DNA of 22,440 nucleotides from a virus, in the IMG/VR virus record IMGVR_UViG_3300047371_000115, positions 1 through 22,440 of that record; one strand, given 5' to 3'. The notes under the pieces were generated by a model. The model did no database searches and was not told the DNA's origin. It saw nothing but the letters and a program-made list of their open reading frames with translations. Every line of letters begins with the position of its first letter. The first letter of the stretch is position 1. A program made the position numbers and the translations under genes. Below are positions 10,153-22,423 of the stretch, piece after piece.

Positions 10153-10917
10153 TTAAATGTATCGTCTTAAGAGTTTATACATGTTATCTGTATCGTATCT
10201 CTTATCTCTTTTCTTTTTTTGCATTGTTGGAGGCATACTAATTGCACCTCCAGTGGAATTCATAGGTGCGTCTTCATTTATCTCTTCAACTTTCATATAC
10301 TTGAATAATTCTTTACCAAGATATACACCTGCTTCATAGTCTGAAGGATAATGCAATCCTGCTATGACTCTTCCGAATCCACTAATTTTTGCACCATTCA
10401 TAATTCCCTGTTGGTGTTGTGGATACATTTTACTGTAATATAATCCTACAACATATGGTTGTGTTGTATGTCCACTAGGGTATGAAGGTGTCTTACTTGT
10501 TTCTGTTTTAAATCTGTCAAATTTCATTCCTAAATGTTCTGCAACTTGATATGGTCTTGCACGATTGAAATGGTTTTTGTGGTGTTTGATTACTGGACTA
10601 CATTGTTTTCTGATAAAGTCTATAGTGTCTTGACTGTATTCTAAGTCATGGTCGTCCATGTATTGTTTGATATAACATGATGCATCTTCGTCACAATTTA
10701 TATATTGACGTTTCTGTTCGTCTGTTGCACCCTTTACTAATCTCTGACATTCTTTCAGTTCGTCTATAACTTTCTGTCCTTTAGGATATGCACCCAACAT
10801 TATAGTTTCCCAACCTTCGTCCCATAGTGTGAGTCTTTTATAGTCGGGTTTCTTTAAGTCCTTTTGTTGACCAAAAGTAAGGTTATCTATTTCTTGTACT
10901 GATTCAATAAACATCAT
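10153..10917 (-). CDS. PAP2-family phosphatase
   Basis: All three motifs of the PAP2/class A acid phosphatase family are present: K114-x6-R121-P122 (KNHFNRARP), P147-S-G-H150 (PSYPSGHTT), and R183-x5-H189-x3-D193 (GRVIAGLHYPSD, with Gly in place of the usual Ser before Arg). The His residues carry out phosphoryl transfer. Family members act on phospholipids, phosphate esters or, as haloperoxidases, on halides. Unlike secreted bacterial class A enzymes, no signal peptide or transmembrane helix is visible, so a cytoplasmic or virion location is suggested. It overlaps the previous gene by 14 bases; a second Met follows the first, so the start could be one codon later. Substrate unknown. Confidence 0.85.
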   Translation of the reverse strand: MMFIESVQEIDNLTFGQQKDLKKPDYKRLTLWDEGWETIMLGAYPKGQKVIDELKECQRLVKGATDEQKRQYINCDEDASCYIKQYMDDHDLEYSQDTIDFIRKQCSPVIKHHKNHFNRARPYQVAEHLGMKFDRFKTETSKTPSYPSGHTTQPYVVGLYYSKMYPQHQQGIMNGAKISGFGRVIAGLHYPSDYEAGVYLGKELFKYMKVEEINEDAPMNSTGGAISMPPTMQKKKRDKRYDTDNMYKLLRRYI

Positions 10918-11494
10918 CTGCAGTCAATACGACCCTCTCGTCATTTACAAATCCAATGTATGTTTGAATACCATATATCTTTTCGTATTCTGAATGAACA
11001 AGGACTTGGTCTTTATGTTGGTGTATAATTTCACCTTGTTCTTTGATTGGGAATCTAATGTTATATGTTTCTCCCAATTCTAATTTACCGATATTGATTG
11101 TTTCTGTAATCATTTCGGCTTCTAATAATTCATTGTCTTTTAGGAATCTATAGAACTTTTCATATAACTCTTCTGATTGTTCATCGTCTAACTCACATTC
11201 CTCTTTTAGTAGTAAAAGTGCAGTGACATATGATGCAAATTGAGTTTTTCCGAAAGGAACTTTCTCAATGATTTTCTTTAGATTGAATACAAGTCTATGT
11301 AAAGGTGTGAGAGAAGACTTTTCTTTTGTAGTAACTGGGTCATTCCTAACCATTTTACCATTCTCGTCTTCTATTTTCTTAATTCTAGTTCCGTTTTTAT
11401 CGATAAATCCAAACTTGAATGCCTGCATTTTATTGAAGGGTGTTGTTAACATCTTCAATATACGGAAAACTATTAGTGTGTCTACGATTCTCAT
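10904..11494 (-). CDS. conserved unknown protein of T4-like phages, 196 aa
   Basis: The protein opens MRIVDTLIVFRILKMLTTPFNKMQAF, a pattern I associate with conserved uncharacterised proteins of marine T4-like phages, near structural genes. It has a helical middle (PLHRLVFNLKKIIEKVP..., about 64-125) and a beta-rich C-terminal part (about 130-196). No cysteine cluster or catalytic motif is seen. A CTAAATA late-type box lies 5 bases before the ATG with no Shine-Dalgarno, so late expression and a virion-assembly role are likely but unproven. Confidence 0.55.
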   Translation of the reverse strand: MRIVDTLIVFRILKMLTTPFNKMQAFKFGFIDKNGTRIKKIEDENGKMVRNDPVTTKEKSSLTPLHRLVFNLKKIIEKVPFGKTQFASYVTALLLLKEECELDDEQSEELYEKFYRFLKDNELLEAEMITETINIGKLELGETYNIRFPIKEQGEIIHQHKDQVLVHSEYEKIYGIQTYIGFVNDERVVLTADDVY

Positions 11495-11512: not shown

Positions 11513-11884
11513 TTAAAGTTCTCTTAAACGTTCTGCAAGTTTATTATCGATAGGGATATCTATTTTCCAACCTTCCTCTACGTATTCTAGGTATAATAAC
11601 ATAGTTTTTATGGAAGACCAGTAGTTGTCGTCTTTGATTTTGAATTCTAACATTCTCATACATGCGTCATATCCAAAGACATTGAAGATACAGATAAGGT
11701 GATTCAACATTAAACGCTCACGTAATTCACCATTTTCATGGTATCTATGTAATAATCTCTTTAGATATCTAAACCTTCTAAGGTCTTCTTGGAAGTCTTC
11801 CAAGTCCTCACACTGAGGGTCATCGTAATGCTTCATTGCAAACGCTTGAAAGTTTTTTGCTGTGATTTTGTCAAATAGACTCAT
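11513..11884 (-). CDS. conserved unknown protein of T4-like phages, 123 aa
   Basis: The sequence (MSLFDKITAKNFQAFAMKHY..., then a helical FRYLKRLLHRYHENGELRERL and LNHLICIFNVFGYDACMRML) belongs to a type I have seen repeatedly, unannotated, in marine T4-like phages. It is all-helical in appearance, with no signal peptide or membrane span. It follows a 63-base gap containing a hairpin, and has no Shine-Dalgarno. Function is unknown; its position suggests a late gene. Confidence 0.6.
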   Translation of the reverse strand: MSLFDKITAKNFQAFAMKHYDDPQCEDLEDFQEDLRRFRYLKRLLHRYHENGELRERLMLNHLICIFNVFGYDACMRMLEFKIKDDNYWSSIKTMLLYLEYVEEGWKIDIPIDNKLAERLREL

Positions 11885-11947: not shown

Positions 11948-12388
11948 TTAACTTAAAGAACCAATAACTTTATAAGTTCCGTTTTCGTTCTGTTCGTATT
12001 TCACGTTAAGTGATACGATTTTCTCTTCTCTTTCAAATTCGTCATGAGGTGTATCAACTGTTTTACCAGTAACAACACCATATCTGTTGAATTGAATATC
12101 GAATGAACCATTTCCTTCAGTGAATTCTAAGTCTGATTCACCTGTTTTGTTAAGTCCTAATAGAGAAAGTTTTGCTTCCATTTGTGCAACAGCAGCTTTT
12201 GGATTCAACCATTCTGATACTGCAGTTTGACCTAAGATTGCATTAACCTTAGATTTAACGTCTGCATCGTCTATATCGTGTGGTACTTTTTCTGAACTAA
12301 GTCCAGCAGCACCCACAAAAAATGCGTTAGAATCTGTAGGAATTTGACTTCCGCCCTCTTCCAAGATAAAGTTTTTAAATGTTTTCAT
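11948..12388 (-). CDS. putative internal capsid protein with T4-type targeting tag, 146 aa
   Basis: The N-terminus, MKTFKNFILE-EGG, closely resembles the T4 capsid-targeting sequence of internal protein III (MKTYQEFIAE-A), including MKT at the start, aromatic residues at the same positions and Glu at residue 10, where gp21 protease cuts after hydrophobic-X-Glu. The mature part would be about 136 residues, with a helical N-terminal half (about 40-80) and a beta-rich C-terminal half (FTEGNGSFDIQFNRYGVV...). No enzyme motif is seen. A GAGG ribosome site lies a few bases before the ATG. Loading into the prohead and proteolytic trimming are inference from the tag and from neighbouring late genes. 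Confidence 0.65.
   Translation of the reverse strand: MKTFKNFILEEGGSQIPTDSNAFFVGAAGLSSEKVPHDIDDADVKSKVNAILGQTAVSEWLNPKAAVAQMEAKLSLLGLNKTGESDLEFTEGNGSFDIQFNRYGVVTGKTVDTPHDEFEREEKIVSLNVKYEQNENGTYKVIGSLS
12359..12388 (-). other. capsid-targeting-like tag of the 146-aa protein
   Basis: Codons 1-10 encode MKTFKNFILE; the predicted prohead-protease cut follows Glu10. Compare the tag at 21192-21221. Confidence 0.55.
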
Positions 12389-12401
12389 AATTTATCCTCT
12401 A

Positions 12402-12686
12402 TTAACTATCTGATAATACTGTATCGTCATCAACATTAGGTGTTCCAGCGTCTGAGTCATCGTCAAAGTCTGCAACGTCAGCACCCATTGAACCTGAAGA
12501 CATTGCAACCAATGTTTCAAATTGAGTTCTTGACCCTACTACTTTTCTTAATACCCAACCTTCTGAGTTAACACCAGCAGTCGCACCGACTTCAGCTGTA
12601 TCAGCACCATAACATTCTGCTTTATCAGCAGTGTTAAGATATTTTGGTTTAGAAGCTTCGTTGTCTAATAATCCCCAAAGTGCCAT
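12402..12686 (-). CDS. probable small virion protein, 94 aa
   Basis: The protein begins MALWGLLDNEASKPKYLN and has the small, Ala/Gly/Asp-rich composition of a family common near head genes of marine T4-like phages; a middle segment EGWVLRKVVGSRTQFETLVA looks like a beta-hairpin, and the last 25 residues are very acidic and Ser-rich. I take it as a probable virion or capsid-decoration protein, from memory of similar sequences and from context, not from a defining motif. AGGAGA lies 5 bases before its ATG, one of the strongest ribosome sites in this window, consistent with an abundant product. Confidence 0.5.
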   Translation of the reverse strand: MALWGLLDNEASKPKYLNTADKAECYGADTAEVGATAGVNSEGWVLRKVVGSRTQFETLVAMSSGSMGADVADFDDDSDAGTPNVDDDTVLSDS

Positions 12687-19937: not shown

Positions 19938-21221
19938 CTATTTAGTCCGTTTTGCGTCTAACTCTCTCTGTTTCCAGTTGAGTGCAAGTTTGTTTTTAGG
20001 GAATGAAGTAGACCAACCTAGTAGTTTACTGTATAATGAATTTGCTTTTTTGTCAAGTGTTGCAAGGTCATCATCATTCTTAATCTCTACAAAGTCTCTA
20101 CCAAAAATTGATTTATATTCCTTTGCATTCTTTTGTGCAGCGTCCCAATCACCTTTTACAATTTCGGGTGGTAGTTTTCTAGACCTTAAGTCATTTCTTT
20201 TTTGTGCATTGTCTAGACTTGCATTAACAAATACCATTTTGTATTCGTATCCTAATGTGTCTAACATTTTTTTATAGTTCTTAATCTTAGTTGACTTTGC
20301 ACTTGTAGTGTCAAAGATAAGACCTAGTCTTCCTTCGATATATGCATCTAAGTTTTTACCTGTAATCTTTTTTGCTTTTGCACGGATAGGGTCTACTTTA
20401 TCAAAGTCTGCACTTCTAAGGTCAAGTGACATTCCTGCTTTCTTTAGTCCGTTCTCAAATGCTTTATCAGTGTTGACCATTTTTAAACCAAGTGCAGTCA
20501 AAGCTAATTTCTTTACAACTGCAGATTTACCACTGCCTGGCCCACCACTTAAGAAAACTGCTTTGAAAGTGCCTGGGTCATAGACTCCTTCTTGTATCAA
20601 ATCTTCTACCATGTAGTGTGGTAGTGTTCCTTCTGCAATACCCATTCCTTTACGAATGTCGTTGTATAGTTTCTGAATCAACCCTTTATTCTTTGTTGGA
20701 ACACCTAGTTTAAAATTATCAAAGTCACCCTTCTCTGCATATCCTCTGAGTTTACTTGCAGACATTCCACTGACATCATCTGCATCGGGGTCTCTCTCAC
20801 CAGCAGATATGACATTGATTTCGTCAAATTTATAGAATCCGTGTCTTGCTTTTACACCATTGTATTTGTTTAGTAGTGTTTCAAATTCTCTAATTCTATC
20901 TGACCCAACAACCATAGAGATTCTTTTGTATTTTTTCTTGTGTAATTCTGTTGCAATCTCAAATACTGTTCTTGCATTTACGTCTGCAACAATTTTTCCA
21001 AAGAAATTTCTGAGGTATTTGATTTTATCTTTATGTGATAGTGGATTTTTTACCTTGTCATTTGAGTGTGAGGTAAATAACAGAACGTCATCACCTTTTG
21101 ATTCTTTCTTAAGTTTTGCAACTAACTTCCCATGACCTGTTGTAGGTGGATTGAATCTACCAAAGGTAAACACTGCACCCTTGTCTTTTGCCTCTGTTAG
21201 GAATGAATTAAATGATTTCAT
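19938..21221 (-). CDS. nucleotidyltransferase-kinase fusion with capsid-targeting-like tag
   Basis: From ATG 21221 the protein has 427 aa. Residues 1-10, MKSFNSFLTE, match T4 internal-protein tags. Residues 16-195 form a HIGH-type nucleotidyltransferase: GRFNPPTTGH (21-30) and SGMSASKLR (151-159) are the nucleotide-binding motifs seen in NMN adenylyltransferases and relatives. A linker with IAE197-G and IQE211-G follows, then a P-loop kinase (GGPGSGKS 226-233; NTDKAFE; GLIFDTTSAKS) of the zeta-toxin/polynucleotide-kinase type. NTase plus kinase recalls NadR, so NAD salvage is one option; nucleic-acid end repair is another. Start chosen for its TAATG junction; an ATG four codons upstream would bury the tag. 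Confidence 0.8.
   Translation of the reverse strand: MKSFNSFLTEAKDKGAVFTFGRFNPPTTGHGKLVAKLKKESKGDDVLLFTSHSNDKVKNPLSHKDKIKYLRNFFGKIVADVNARTVFEIATELHKKKYKRISMVVGSDRIREFETLLNKYNGVKARHGFYKFDEINVISAGERDPDADDVSGMSASKLRGYAEKGDFDNFKLGVPTKNKGLIQKLYNDIRKGMGIAEGTLPHYMVEDLIQEGVYDPGTFKAVFLSGGPGSGKSAVVKKLALTALGLKMVNTDKAFENGLKKAGMSLDLRSADFDKVDPIRAKAKKITGKNLDAYIEGRLGLIFDTTSAKSTKIKNYKKMLDTLGYEYKMVFVNASLDNAQKRNDLRSRKLPPEIVKGDWDAAQKNAKEYKSIFGRDFVEIKNDDDLATLDKKANSLYSKLLGWSTSFPKNKLALNWKQRELDAKRTK
19939..19945 (-). promoter_or_regulatory. late-type promoter box (CTAAATA)
   Basis: The minus strand reads CTAAATA, five bases, then the ATG at 19933, the same geometry as before 11494. It lies within the end of the nucleotidyltransferase-kinase gene. 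No Shine-Dalgarno is seen. Confidence 0.5.
20589..20630 (-). other. interdomain linker with two prohead-protease-like sites
   Basis: Residues 198-211 of the NTase-kinase are bounded by IAE197-G and IQE211-G. Cuts at both would release separate nucleotidyltransferase and kinase enzymes and a 14-residue peptide. Confidence 0.4.
21192..21221 (-). other. capsid-targeting-like tag of the NTase-kinase
   Basis: Codons 1-10 encode MKSFNSFLTE followed by Ala-Lys. The T4 IPIII tag is MKTYQEFIAE followed by Ala, cleaved after Glu10 by gp21. Length, MK start, aromatic residues at 4 and 7, hydrophobic residue at 8 and Glu at 10 agree. Confidence 0.6.
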
Positions 21222-22423
21222 TACTTGTCCCATGCTTTTTGTGCAGTAAAGTTGTTGAATGCAAACTCCATTCTGTCTACGAGTTTAACTGCACTTCCTG
21301 TTTTATCTATTGCAACGTATCCTTCGGGGTTAACTACCTCGAAACCATTTGCAGTCTTTTTAAAAGTTCCGATACTCTTTACTCTATTTAGGGATTCTAT
21401 AATCATTTGTTTTGCAACAACCAAATGTCCCATAAATGAAGTAAGATTGGTTATCATTTTCTTTAAACTTCTAAGTTCGTTATAGAGTTGTTCACCGATT
21501 TCTCTTTTGATTTCTTTTGTCTTTTCTGTTTTGACTTTACCAACTACTTTGTCTCTCCAATAGTTCTCAAAGTGTTTCATGTATCCGTCATAAGTTGGTT
21601 TGTATGAACCACCTCTAATAAGTGTATTACAATATGTTTTGTATGATGCACCAGCACCTTTTCTACCTATCTCTTCCTGTATCTTCATGAACTTTTGTAG
21701 GTCATTCTTTTTGATTCCGTGGAATGCTTTACCTGTTTTAGATAACTCTTGTGTAAGTGCAAGTGTTTCTTTTGCAGTCATTGAACCTTGACCACTGACA
21801 TCTTTATAACTTGCGTCGTCAATCCATACGTCTGAATTGTTTCCTAGTTTGGATATGTTTGCACCAAAACTTGCAGATAGGTCTTCTATAGTTCCACCAC
21901 TATAGGTAGTGTGAAATACGATTCCCATTTTAGAGTTTGCAATCTTTTTACCTAAGTCTGATTCTATATTGACTGCATACATGATTGTATTGGGTTGGAA
22001 TGTGACAAAAGACTGTCCGTCAATCTTCTGCATTTTCTTATCGTTGGTATACATTAAATCACCTTGCATGATTGTATTCCAAGATAGTTTAGATAAACAC
22101 TGAAATGAAGTCAAGAATTTTTCTTTCAATGCACCACTTAATTCGTCTGCTTTTTTGATTTCTGATTCTGAAGTATAAAATTTGGGTTCTTTGTTAAAGA
22201 GTGATTTCTTTGCAACAAAGAATTGATTAGTTTCGGGGTGTAAACCACAAAAGATAGCAGGAGCTCCGTCCCACTTAACAGTCATATTGACACTTGAATT
22301 AGAGTTTCCTTTCAACATGTCTCTAAGACCCTGTAAAAAGTTTATAGCACCACGTCCACCATCAATCCCTTGATTGATAATCTCGTCTTCTAAGTGTTCT
22401 AAATGTAGATTTTTTGCACCCAT
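21221..22423 (-). CDS. nucleotidyltransferase / RNA-DNA ligase-like protein, 400 aa
   Basis: The family is common but unnamed in marine T4-like phages. It carries an ordered set of motifs like those of covalent nucleotidyltransferases (ligases and capping enzymes): K50-W-D-G53 (motif I, adenylated Lys), G121-D-L123 (motif III), GIVFHTTYSG (about 167-176, IIIa-like), E367-G-Y-V370 (motif IV) and K380-L-V (motif V-like). A basic helical region (about 280-345) is inserted before motif IV, which is a large separation compared with classical ligases. It lies directly before a kinase-containing gene in a TAATG junction, recalling kinase-ligase repair pairs. Ligase activity is inference. No Shine-Dalgarno; TATAAT ends 7 bases before the ATG. 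Confidence 0.6.
   Translation of the reverse strand: MGAKNLHLEHLEDEIINQGIDGGRGAINFLQGLRDMLKGNSNSSVNMTVKWDGAPAIFCGLHPETNQFFVAKKSLFNKEPKFYTSESEIKKADELSGALKEKFLTSFQCLSKLSWNTIMQGDLMYTNDKKMQKIDGQSFVTFQPNTIMYAVNIESDLGKKIANSKMGIVFHTTYSGGTIEDLSASFGANISKLGNNSDVWIDDASYKDVSGQGSMTAKETLALTQELSKTGKAFHGIKKNDLQKFMKIQEEIGRKGAGASYKTYCNTLIRGGSYKPTYDGYMKHFENYWRDKVVGKVKTEKTKEIKREIGEQLYNELRSLKKMITNLTSFMGHLVVAKQMIIESLNRVKSIGTFKKTANGFEVVNPEGYVAIDKTGSAVKLVDRMEFAFNNFTAQKAWDK

Follow-up and report, generated by a model that had tools for sequence, protein, structure and literature searches.

A T4-type capsid-targeting-like leader on a conserved, acidic protein family of T4-like phages

A gene for a 146-residue protein of a marine T4-like bacteriophage, in IMG/VR record IMGVR_UViG_3300047371_000115 (positions 1 to 22,440, the whole stretch of DNA analysed and hereafter called the window), begins with a ten-residue tag like that of the internal proteins (IPs) of phage T4, joined to a body unrelated to them. 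The capsid targeting sequence (CTS) is a concept known from T4; here, a T4-type leader is found on a new, conserved and acidic domain, in a protein family previously unnamed. The product is quite probably addressed to the interior of the head by this CTS, its conserved domain answering a steady need of the phage lineage and not a host-by-host arms race. From the analysis as a whole, packaging and cutting of the protein are likely, its ejection into the cell is plausible, and an anti-restriction role, though possible, is not the preferred one.

The tag and its likeness to T4 leaders

In the ORF list of the window, the gene has an ATG start on the minus strand and the N-terminus MKTFKNFILEE (Table 1). 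Since an in-frame stop lies two codons 5' of this ATG, with one open codon in between, no other ordinary start is available and the position is firm. IPII and IPIII of T4 both begin MKTYQEFIAEA, and IPI begins MKTFKEFTSTTTPVSTITEA; comparison of the sequences shows that MKTFKNFILE agrees with the tag of IPII and IPIII at positions 2, 4, 7, 8 and 10, which bears out the pattern shared with IPIII and with an NTase-kinase of the window that the first-pass annotation had noticed. According to the relevant part of PMC9026906, mutations of IPIII place the control of head targeting in residues 4 and 7 and that of the gp21 cut in residues 8 and 10. Ten residues are described as enough for incorporation into the T4 head, and the leader as able to package foreign proteins, in the corresponding parts of PMC9026906 and PMC3012670. 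The 146-residue protein carries the targeting residues (aromatic at 4 and 7) as well as the processing residues (8 and 10) by which a CTS protein is recognised. A cut after Glu11 is as compatible as one after Glu10, because ILE and LEE both fit the [I/L]xE site.

At the DNA level, the window has two occurrences of the strict pattern M-K-x-[FY]-x-x-[FY]-[aliphatic or F]-x-E, one at the start of the 146-residue gene and one at that of the NTase-kinase gene, compared with a mean of 0.02 in shuffles of the window DNA, and none of the 100 shuffles held two matches. At the protein level, the motif stands at 2 of the 33 gene starts of a list picked by hand, where the frequency of its nine-residue body anywhere in window proteins predicts 0.019, and at 1 of 180 internal Met residues. 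The NTase-kinase ORF has an alternative start at 21233, four codons earlier (MGQVMKSF); its likely start is nevertheless 21221, because the tag begins there. The T4 late promoter TATAAATA was found twice in the window, against 1.9 occurrences expected, and is uninformative.

Table 1. Positions of the tagged genes, their parts and their neighbours in the window
Feature	Position	Strand	Basis
CDS of the tag-bearing protein, 146 aa	11948..12388	-	ORF list; family of 73 distinct proteins; purifying selection
CTS-like tag MKTFKNFILE, 10 codons, with gp21-type cleavage predicted behind codon 10 or 11	12359..12388	-	Pattern count, comparison with T4 and family; cut predicted
GAGG, RBS-like, 7 nt 5' of the ATG	12396..12399	-	Sequence
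Linker, residues 11-35, differing among relatives in sequence and length	12284..12358	-	Alignment; low model confidence
Conserved domain (residues 36-146) of two helices followed by three strands	11951..12283	-	Alignment; AlphaFold2 pLDDT 70, pTM 0.56
Upstream neighbour, N-terminus MALWG..., like cyanophage S-layer/T4-GC425 proteins	12402..12686	-	PHROG 11617, E 1.2e-4
Downstream neighbour, DUF7207 / phrog_407, fixed partner of the tag gene	11513..11884	-	Profile match; adjacency
Next gene, phrog_18642 / N-terminal part of phrog_2086	10904..11494	-	Profile match
NTase-kinase, second tag MKSFNSFLTE then A, basic body of pI 9.7	19938..21221	-	ORF list, profiles, pattern
Tag of the NTase-kinase	21192..21221	-	DNA pattern count

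Conservation, body and neighbourhood of the family

IMG/VR searches with four family members returned 42, 32, 19 and 20 loci, and a fifth query returned one, with some contigs occurring twice. Excluded from the family count were the truncated L093, L110 and L112 and the named records L043 and L044, L043 and L094 being one phage. The first-pass annotation had pointed to lack of the tag in close homologues as the observation that would speak against its reading; MKxF together with an [ILVAM]xE site is kept in 72 of the 73 distinct family proteins. The start was identified in 72 of these 73, with K2 in 72, F4 in 72, F/Y/H at position 7 in 70 and E10 in 55, the counts for K2 and F4 being somewhat inflated by a choice of start that favoured tag-like Met codons. 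An [ILVAM]xE site falls within residues 7-20 in 72 of the 72 proteins, which are kin and not independent, against 34% of the other 14-mers in the same proteins. The exception, L042, is without the canonical tag and begins MRYKHLKRKINE from a TTG codon. Members of the HTVC008M-type branch have a longer leader, MKSFKEFQNISE, in which residue 10 is not Glu and [ILV]xE comes later, as in T4 IPI. In the alignment, the linker between tag and domain differs in both length and sequence among relatives.

The body, from about residue 36 to 146, is modelled by AlphaFold2 from 57 sequences as a domain of two helices and three strands, with middling confidence (pLDDT 70, pTM 0.56). In a full-length model from 22 sequences, the leader is unmodelled, with pLDDT under 50, beside the folded body. 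The first-pass annotation had called the domain unrecognised, and this still applies: no convincing match was obtained from Pfam, PHROG or NCBIfam, the best Pfam and PHROG E-values for the window protein being 0.066-0.18, below the cut-off, and NCBIfam giving none. Among the 57 family members, the few matches were weak and sporadic, the best being Pfam DUF1825 (2.5e-4, two members), with PADLOC Csn2 at 7e-4 (two members). A search of solved-structure sequences with the family profile gave one match, at E 0.75. With the body model (pTM 0.56), Foldseek returned nothing from the PDB at E <=0.001, and the best VIA-align Z was 5.3. In BFVD, three uncharacterised or unnamed viral proteins resemble the model (E 3.6e-6 to 1.2e-5), as does, at E 3.3e-3, a protein of 1134 aa labelled Acb1, with its region of alignment unread. 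An NTF2-like or Acb1-like body was considered and rejected, the matches being weak or unread.

The mature window protein would have a pI of 4.5. All 111 loci measured encode an acidic product, with a net charge of -13 to -5 and a pI of no more than 5.33; the pI values of the three IPs of T4 are 9.0-9.7. A domain profile search of S-SM1, S-SM2, Syn9, P-SSM4, phiM19, CBA120 and T4 found no copy. A distant branch (L193, L238, L247, L181, L191 and L276) was detected by HMM at E 7.5e-10 to 8.4e-7; in it, tag and domain head proteins of 276-643 aa. The tails of these proteins are lysine-rich and, judged by eye without composition control of the spacing, contain repeated [ILV]xE motifs that would suit a precursor for a prohead protease. 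This branch is called freshwater-type here from the unlike company on its contigs and not from a label.

A DUF7207 homologue lies downstream of the family gene in 114 of the 114 loci where that side is present, at least four of which repeat a contig or phage. The gap between the two genes is at most 137 nt in 111 loci and 419 nt in three; two more loci lie on contigs that stop before this point. Among T4-like cyanophages DUF7207 is widespread, and it extends to Ackermannviridae (661 records). In named relatives, gp41 and gp61, the primase, flank the interval to which the family gene belongs. In P-SSM4, the genes flanking DUF7207 (T4-GC425 and 426) are noted as 'similar to Synechococcus phage S-SM1 protein', a note which, from the 18 S-SM2 features that bear it in four stretches, appears to mark virion proteins. 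A protein encoded at window positions 10153-10917, on the minus strand, contains a PSYPSGHT...GLHYPSD stretch and has no PHROG match; the stretch presumably recalls PAP2 phosphatases. The same protein ends EDAPMNSTGGAISMPP...KKK, as do several virion-region proteins of relatives and T4 gp61.1.

In 187 matched gene pairs from 85 distinct loci, which are kin and not independent, the family gene had a median dN/dS of 0.140, compared with 0.101 in DUF7207 and 0.093 in the gene that follows; the family gene exceeded DUF7207 in 148 of the 187 pairs and the next gene in 160. Where DUF7207 is 50-70% identical, the tagged protein has a median identity of 34%. The family gene therefore changes somewhat faster than its neighbours, yet is under clear constraint. 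An initial dN/dS of 0.47 (against 0.13 and 0.11) was dropped, as it came from differing pair sets, many with saturated dS.

Reuse of the tag on other proteins

In 31 records, the strict pattern gave 38 matches, distributed over 25 of the 31, and its reversed control gave none; two of the 38 fall on ORFs of 30 and 35 aa and are probably due to chance. Six contigs bear the tag on both the family gene and the NTase. In the 174-kb genome of S-SM1, the sole strict DNA match is the start of SSM1_190, the T4-GC190 cytidyltransferase, and in T4 the strict matches are three: IPII, IPIII and gp61.1. By position and annotation, T4-GC190 corresponds to the NTase-kinase of the window and not to the 146-residue protein. 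T4-GC190 was seen by mass spectrometry in purified S-SM1 virions, according to the relevant part of PMC3037559.

The first-pass annotation had proposed scanning related genomes for such tags on different bodies. In IMG/VR, a stricter pattern, MKxFKxFIxEE, gave at least 121 matches in at least 120 loci, while the same residues reversed gave none, and the tag was indeed found on at least 38 clusters of different bodies. Among the 121 matches listed, 114 have at most 20 open codons upstream and thus lie near an ORF start, and an RBS-like 4-mer precedes 55 (45%), compared with 13% among ATGs. Bodies of at least 35 aa number 120 among these matches and fall into 38 unrelated blastp clusters, and 94 of the 120 loci carry at least one homologue of an HTVC008M core gene. 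Pfam was applied to 20 representative bodies of the 120 listed, with a match at E 0.01 in five and none in 15; the clearest were HicA toxin (E 1.1e-12, with DUF6321) and DUF5662 (4.7e-22), and matches to DUF5754, cytidylyltransferase and a fibre repeat remained below the cut-offs. The HicA case, L172:12007-12630, consists of a HicA-toxin domain followed by DUF6321, bears the tag MKTFKAFISE and belongs to a cluster of 11 tagged proteins among the matches listed; its contig stretch contains no HTVC008M core homologue. The window itself is a fragment, and evidence for a gp21 protease comes from relatives: with the HTVC008M protein as query, a homologue is present in 9 of the 12 records that have the family gene, the three without it being of 58-79 kb.

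Several further proteins of the same regions deserve description. On the minus strand of the window, positions 21221-22423 encode a phrog_455 protein (E 1.7e-86) with a KWDGAPA motif, which we take to recall the KxDG site of nucleotidyltransferases and ligases; the frame is open to the end of the window, so that the gene may really begin beyond it. A tagged protein of L269 among the IMG/VR matches listed, starting MKSFKKFIAEE, has KWDGAPA too. Related-looking proteins of about 350 aa open the gp41-gp61 interval at L209:9409-10467 (minus strand), L044:2898-3983 and L043:2102-3160, with the tag-like starts MKNFKQFISEE, MQGFKTFLSEA and MLSFTGYSNLSEA, respectively; a TPKTD...SLK stretch in them presumably recalls PD-(D/E)xK nucleases. 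The small protein encoded at L046:9354-9878 (Syn9 gp190) has an N-terminal TTGYTGGDAATGPTAGYDPV that resembles the N-terminal region of S-SM1 gp23, from which its label of 'major head protein' may stem.

T4 gp61.1, a protein of 54 aa (L164:1967-2131, minus strand, equal to T4 NC_000866 18966-19130), begins MKTFKEFIKE followed by D and adjoins primase gene 61. By its tag, it is an additional capsid-targeting candidate. It matches the C-terminal part of phrog_2086, whose N-terminal part matches the window gene two places downstream of the tagged one. No virion role of gp61.1 was found in the titles and abstract openings of the literature searched. That literature likewise yielded no description of the family or of the breadth of tag reuse, and nothing combining the capsid targeting sequence with metagenomes and T4-like phages.

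Explanations weighed and known systems compared

Given the tag match, its conservation, the S-SM1 virion protein and the modular reuse, CTS packaging followed by gp21-type cutting appears to be the best reading. Late in infection, the N-terminal MKTFKNFILE would bind the prohead core, and the protein would be built in with the scaffold, as in T4. A prohead protease of the gp21 type, whose gene is seen in relatives, would then cut after [I/L]xE and leave an acidic protein of about 136 residues in the head. T4 IPs and Alt leave the head with the DNA at infection; in the same way, the mature protein would remain with the packaged DNA and most likely exit with it at the next infection. The domain of two helices and three strands may serve head maturation or the first minutes of infection.

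The T4 IP tag invites the proposal that this is a tag-packaged, injected anti-defence factor of the IPI/IPII/IPIII type, which inhibits a restriction or defence enzyme of the host. The greater dN/dS of the family gene than of both neighbours, and its 34% identity where DUF7207 retains 50-70%, are in line with this, as is the statement in part of PMC12373910 that T4 IP1-3 all inhibit GmrSD-type restriction enzymes. The proposal is nonetheless unlikely, for the median dN/dS over the 187 matched pairs is only 0.14, the synteny of the gene is fixed, and its body is acidic in every locus measured. The ip loci of T-even phages are variable. No similarity of the body to the T4 IPs was detected beyond the tag, and the window protein matched none of the PADLOC models. 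Named relatives infect Pelagibacter and Methylophilales. Restriction-modification is also rare in SAR11, which may not be the host of the window, being reported in only one of more than 100 genomes in the part of PMC7029224 concerned. The acidic body, the adjacency to DUF7207 and the purifying selection together speak against a hypervariable cassette for anti-defence such as those of the T4 IPs. The first-pass interpretation of an internal-protein candidate thus survives in its T4-type tag, joined to an unrelated body with no likeness to the T4 IPs beyond that tag, and in the modular reuse, and lacks support in its fast-evolving, anti-defence nature, given the fixed locus, the low dN/dS and an acidic body in place of the basic T4 ones.

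IPIII and gp67 assist head assembly and DNA packing in T4, and a comparable role as a prohead-core or head-maturation protein, in which the tag holds the scaffold core, the job lies in assembly or DNA packing and injection is incidental, has a substantial chance of being correct, though somewhat short of even. Purifying selection and the fixed place of the gene agree with it, as do the long lysine-rich proteins of the freshwater-type branch, although their [ILV]xE spacing was judged by eye and without composition control. The domain is absent from S-SM1, S-SM2, Syn9, P-SSM4 and T4 in the profile search and is therefore not a general head part. It is very improbable that the tag is instead an N-terminal helix for tail or neck attachment, or for translation, with a convergent likeness to the T4 IPs. 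The motif is admittedly short; but the match falls exactly on the residues shown to matter by T4 mutation in the part of PMC9026906 cited above, the only strict match of S-SM1 is a virion protein (PMC3037559, in the part cited), and at least 38 unrelated body clusters share the tag, mainly in T4-like contigs.

Beyond head targeting of the 146-residue protein, a broader joint reading can be formulated, for which we see about even prospects when its three parts are taken together. One short leader would serve as a general head-loading system of marine and freshwater T4-like phages, which packs proteins unrelated to one another, dozens in all, and delivers them along with the genome: nucleotidyltransferases, proteins like ligases or HicA toxin, and uncharacterised domains such as the present one. 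The gp41-gp61 interval would be a home of such cargo, with T4 gp61.1 as an extra internal protein; and the 146-aa family would be a conserved member which, in the freshwater branch, stands at the front of polyproteins that the prohead protease cuts. T4-like phages are among the commonest viruses of the sea, and most of their genes in the ocean have no known function. With a sequence rule for head-carried proteins, many 'hypothetical proteins' would become cargo open to test and available from the very start of an infection; the rule singles out T4 gp61.1 as a directly testable laboratory case. From the family it would also seem that not all cargo targeted to the capsid has to come as variable arms-race cassettes, one member being conserved, fixed and acidic.

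Among known systems, the T4 internal proteins IPI, IPII and IPIII share with the 146-residue protein K2, the aromatic residues at 4 and 7, the aliphatic residue at 8 and Glu at 10, as well as a short leader with a predicted cut on unrelated bodies, in a T4-type phage setting with a gp21 protease (seen in relatives). They differ in that their bodies are basic and without sequence similarity to the acidic one described here, and in that the family gene, for whose product packaging, cutting and injection are predicted, is fixed and conserved and not a variable cassette. The T4-GC190 cytidyltransferase of S-SM1, S-SM2 and Syn9 has the same tag (MKKFSAFLNE then A in S-SM1) and lies in the same gp41-gp61 interval, but its body is a nucleotidyltransferase, the counterpart of which in the window is the NTase-kinase. 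T4 gp61.1 combines a strict tag with a location next to primase gene 61, again in the gp41-gp61 interval, whereas its short low-complexity body has no domain in common with the 146-residue protein. The hypothetical proteins HTVC008M AGE60473 and Melnitz QZI94981 are orthologues, with 27-37% identity over the matched part and, in HTVC008M, a longer, IPI-like leader; they have the same domain, tag and DUF7207 neighbour.
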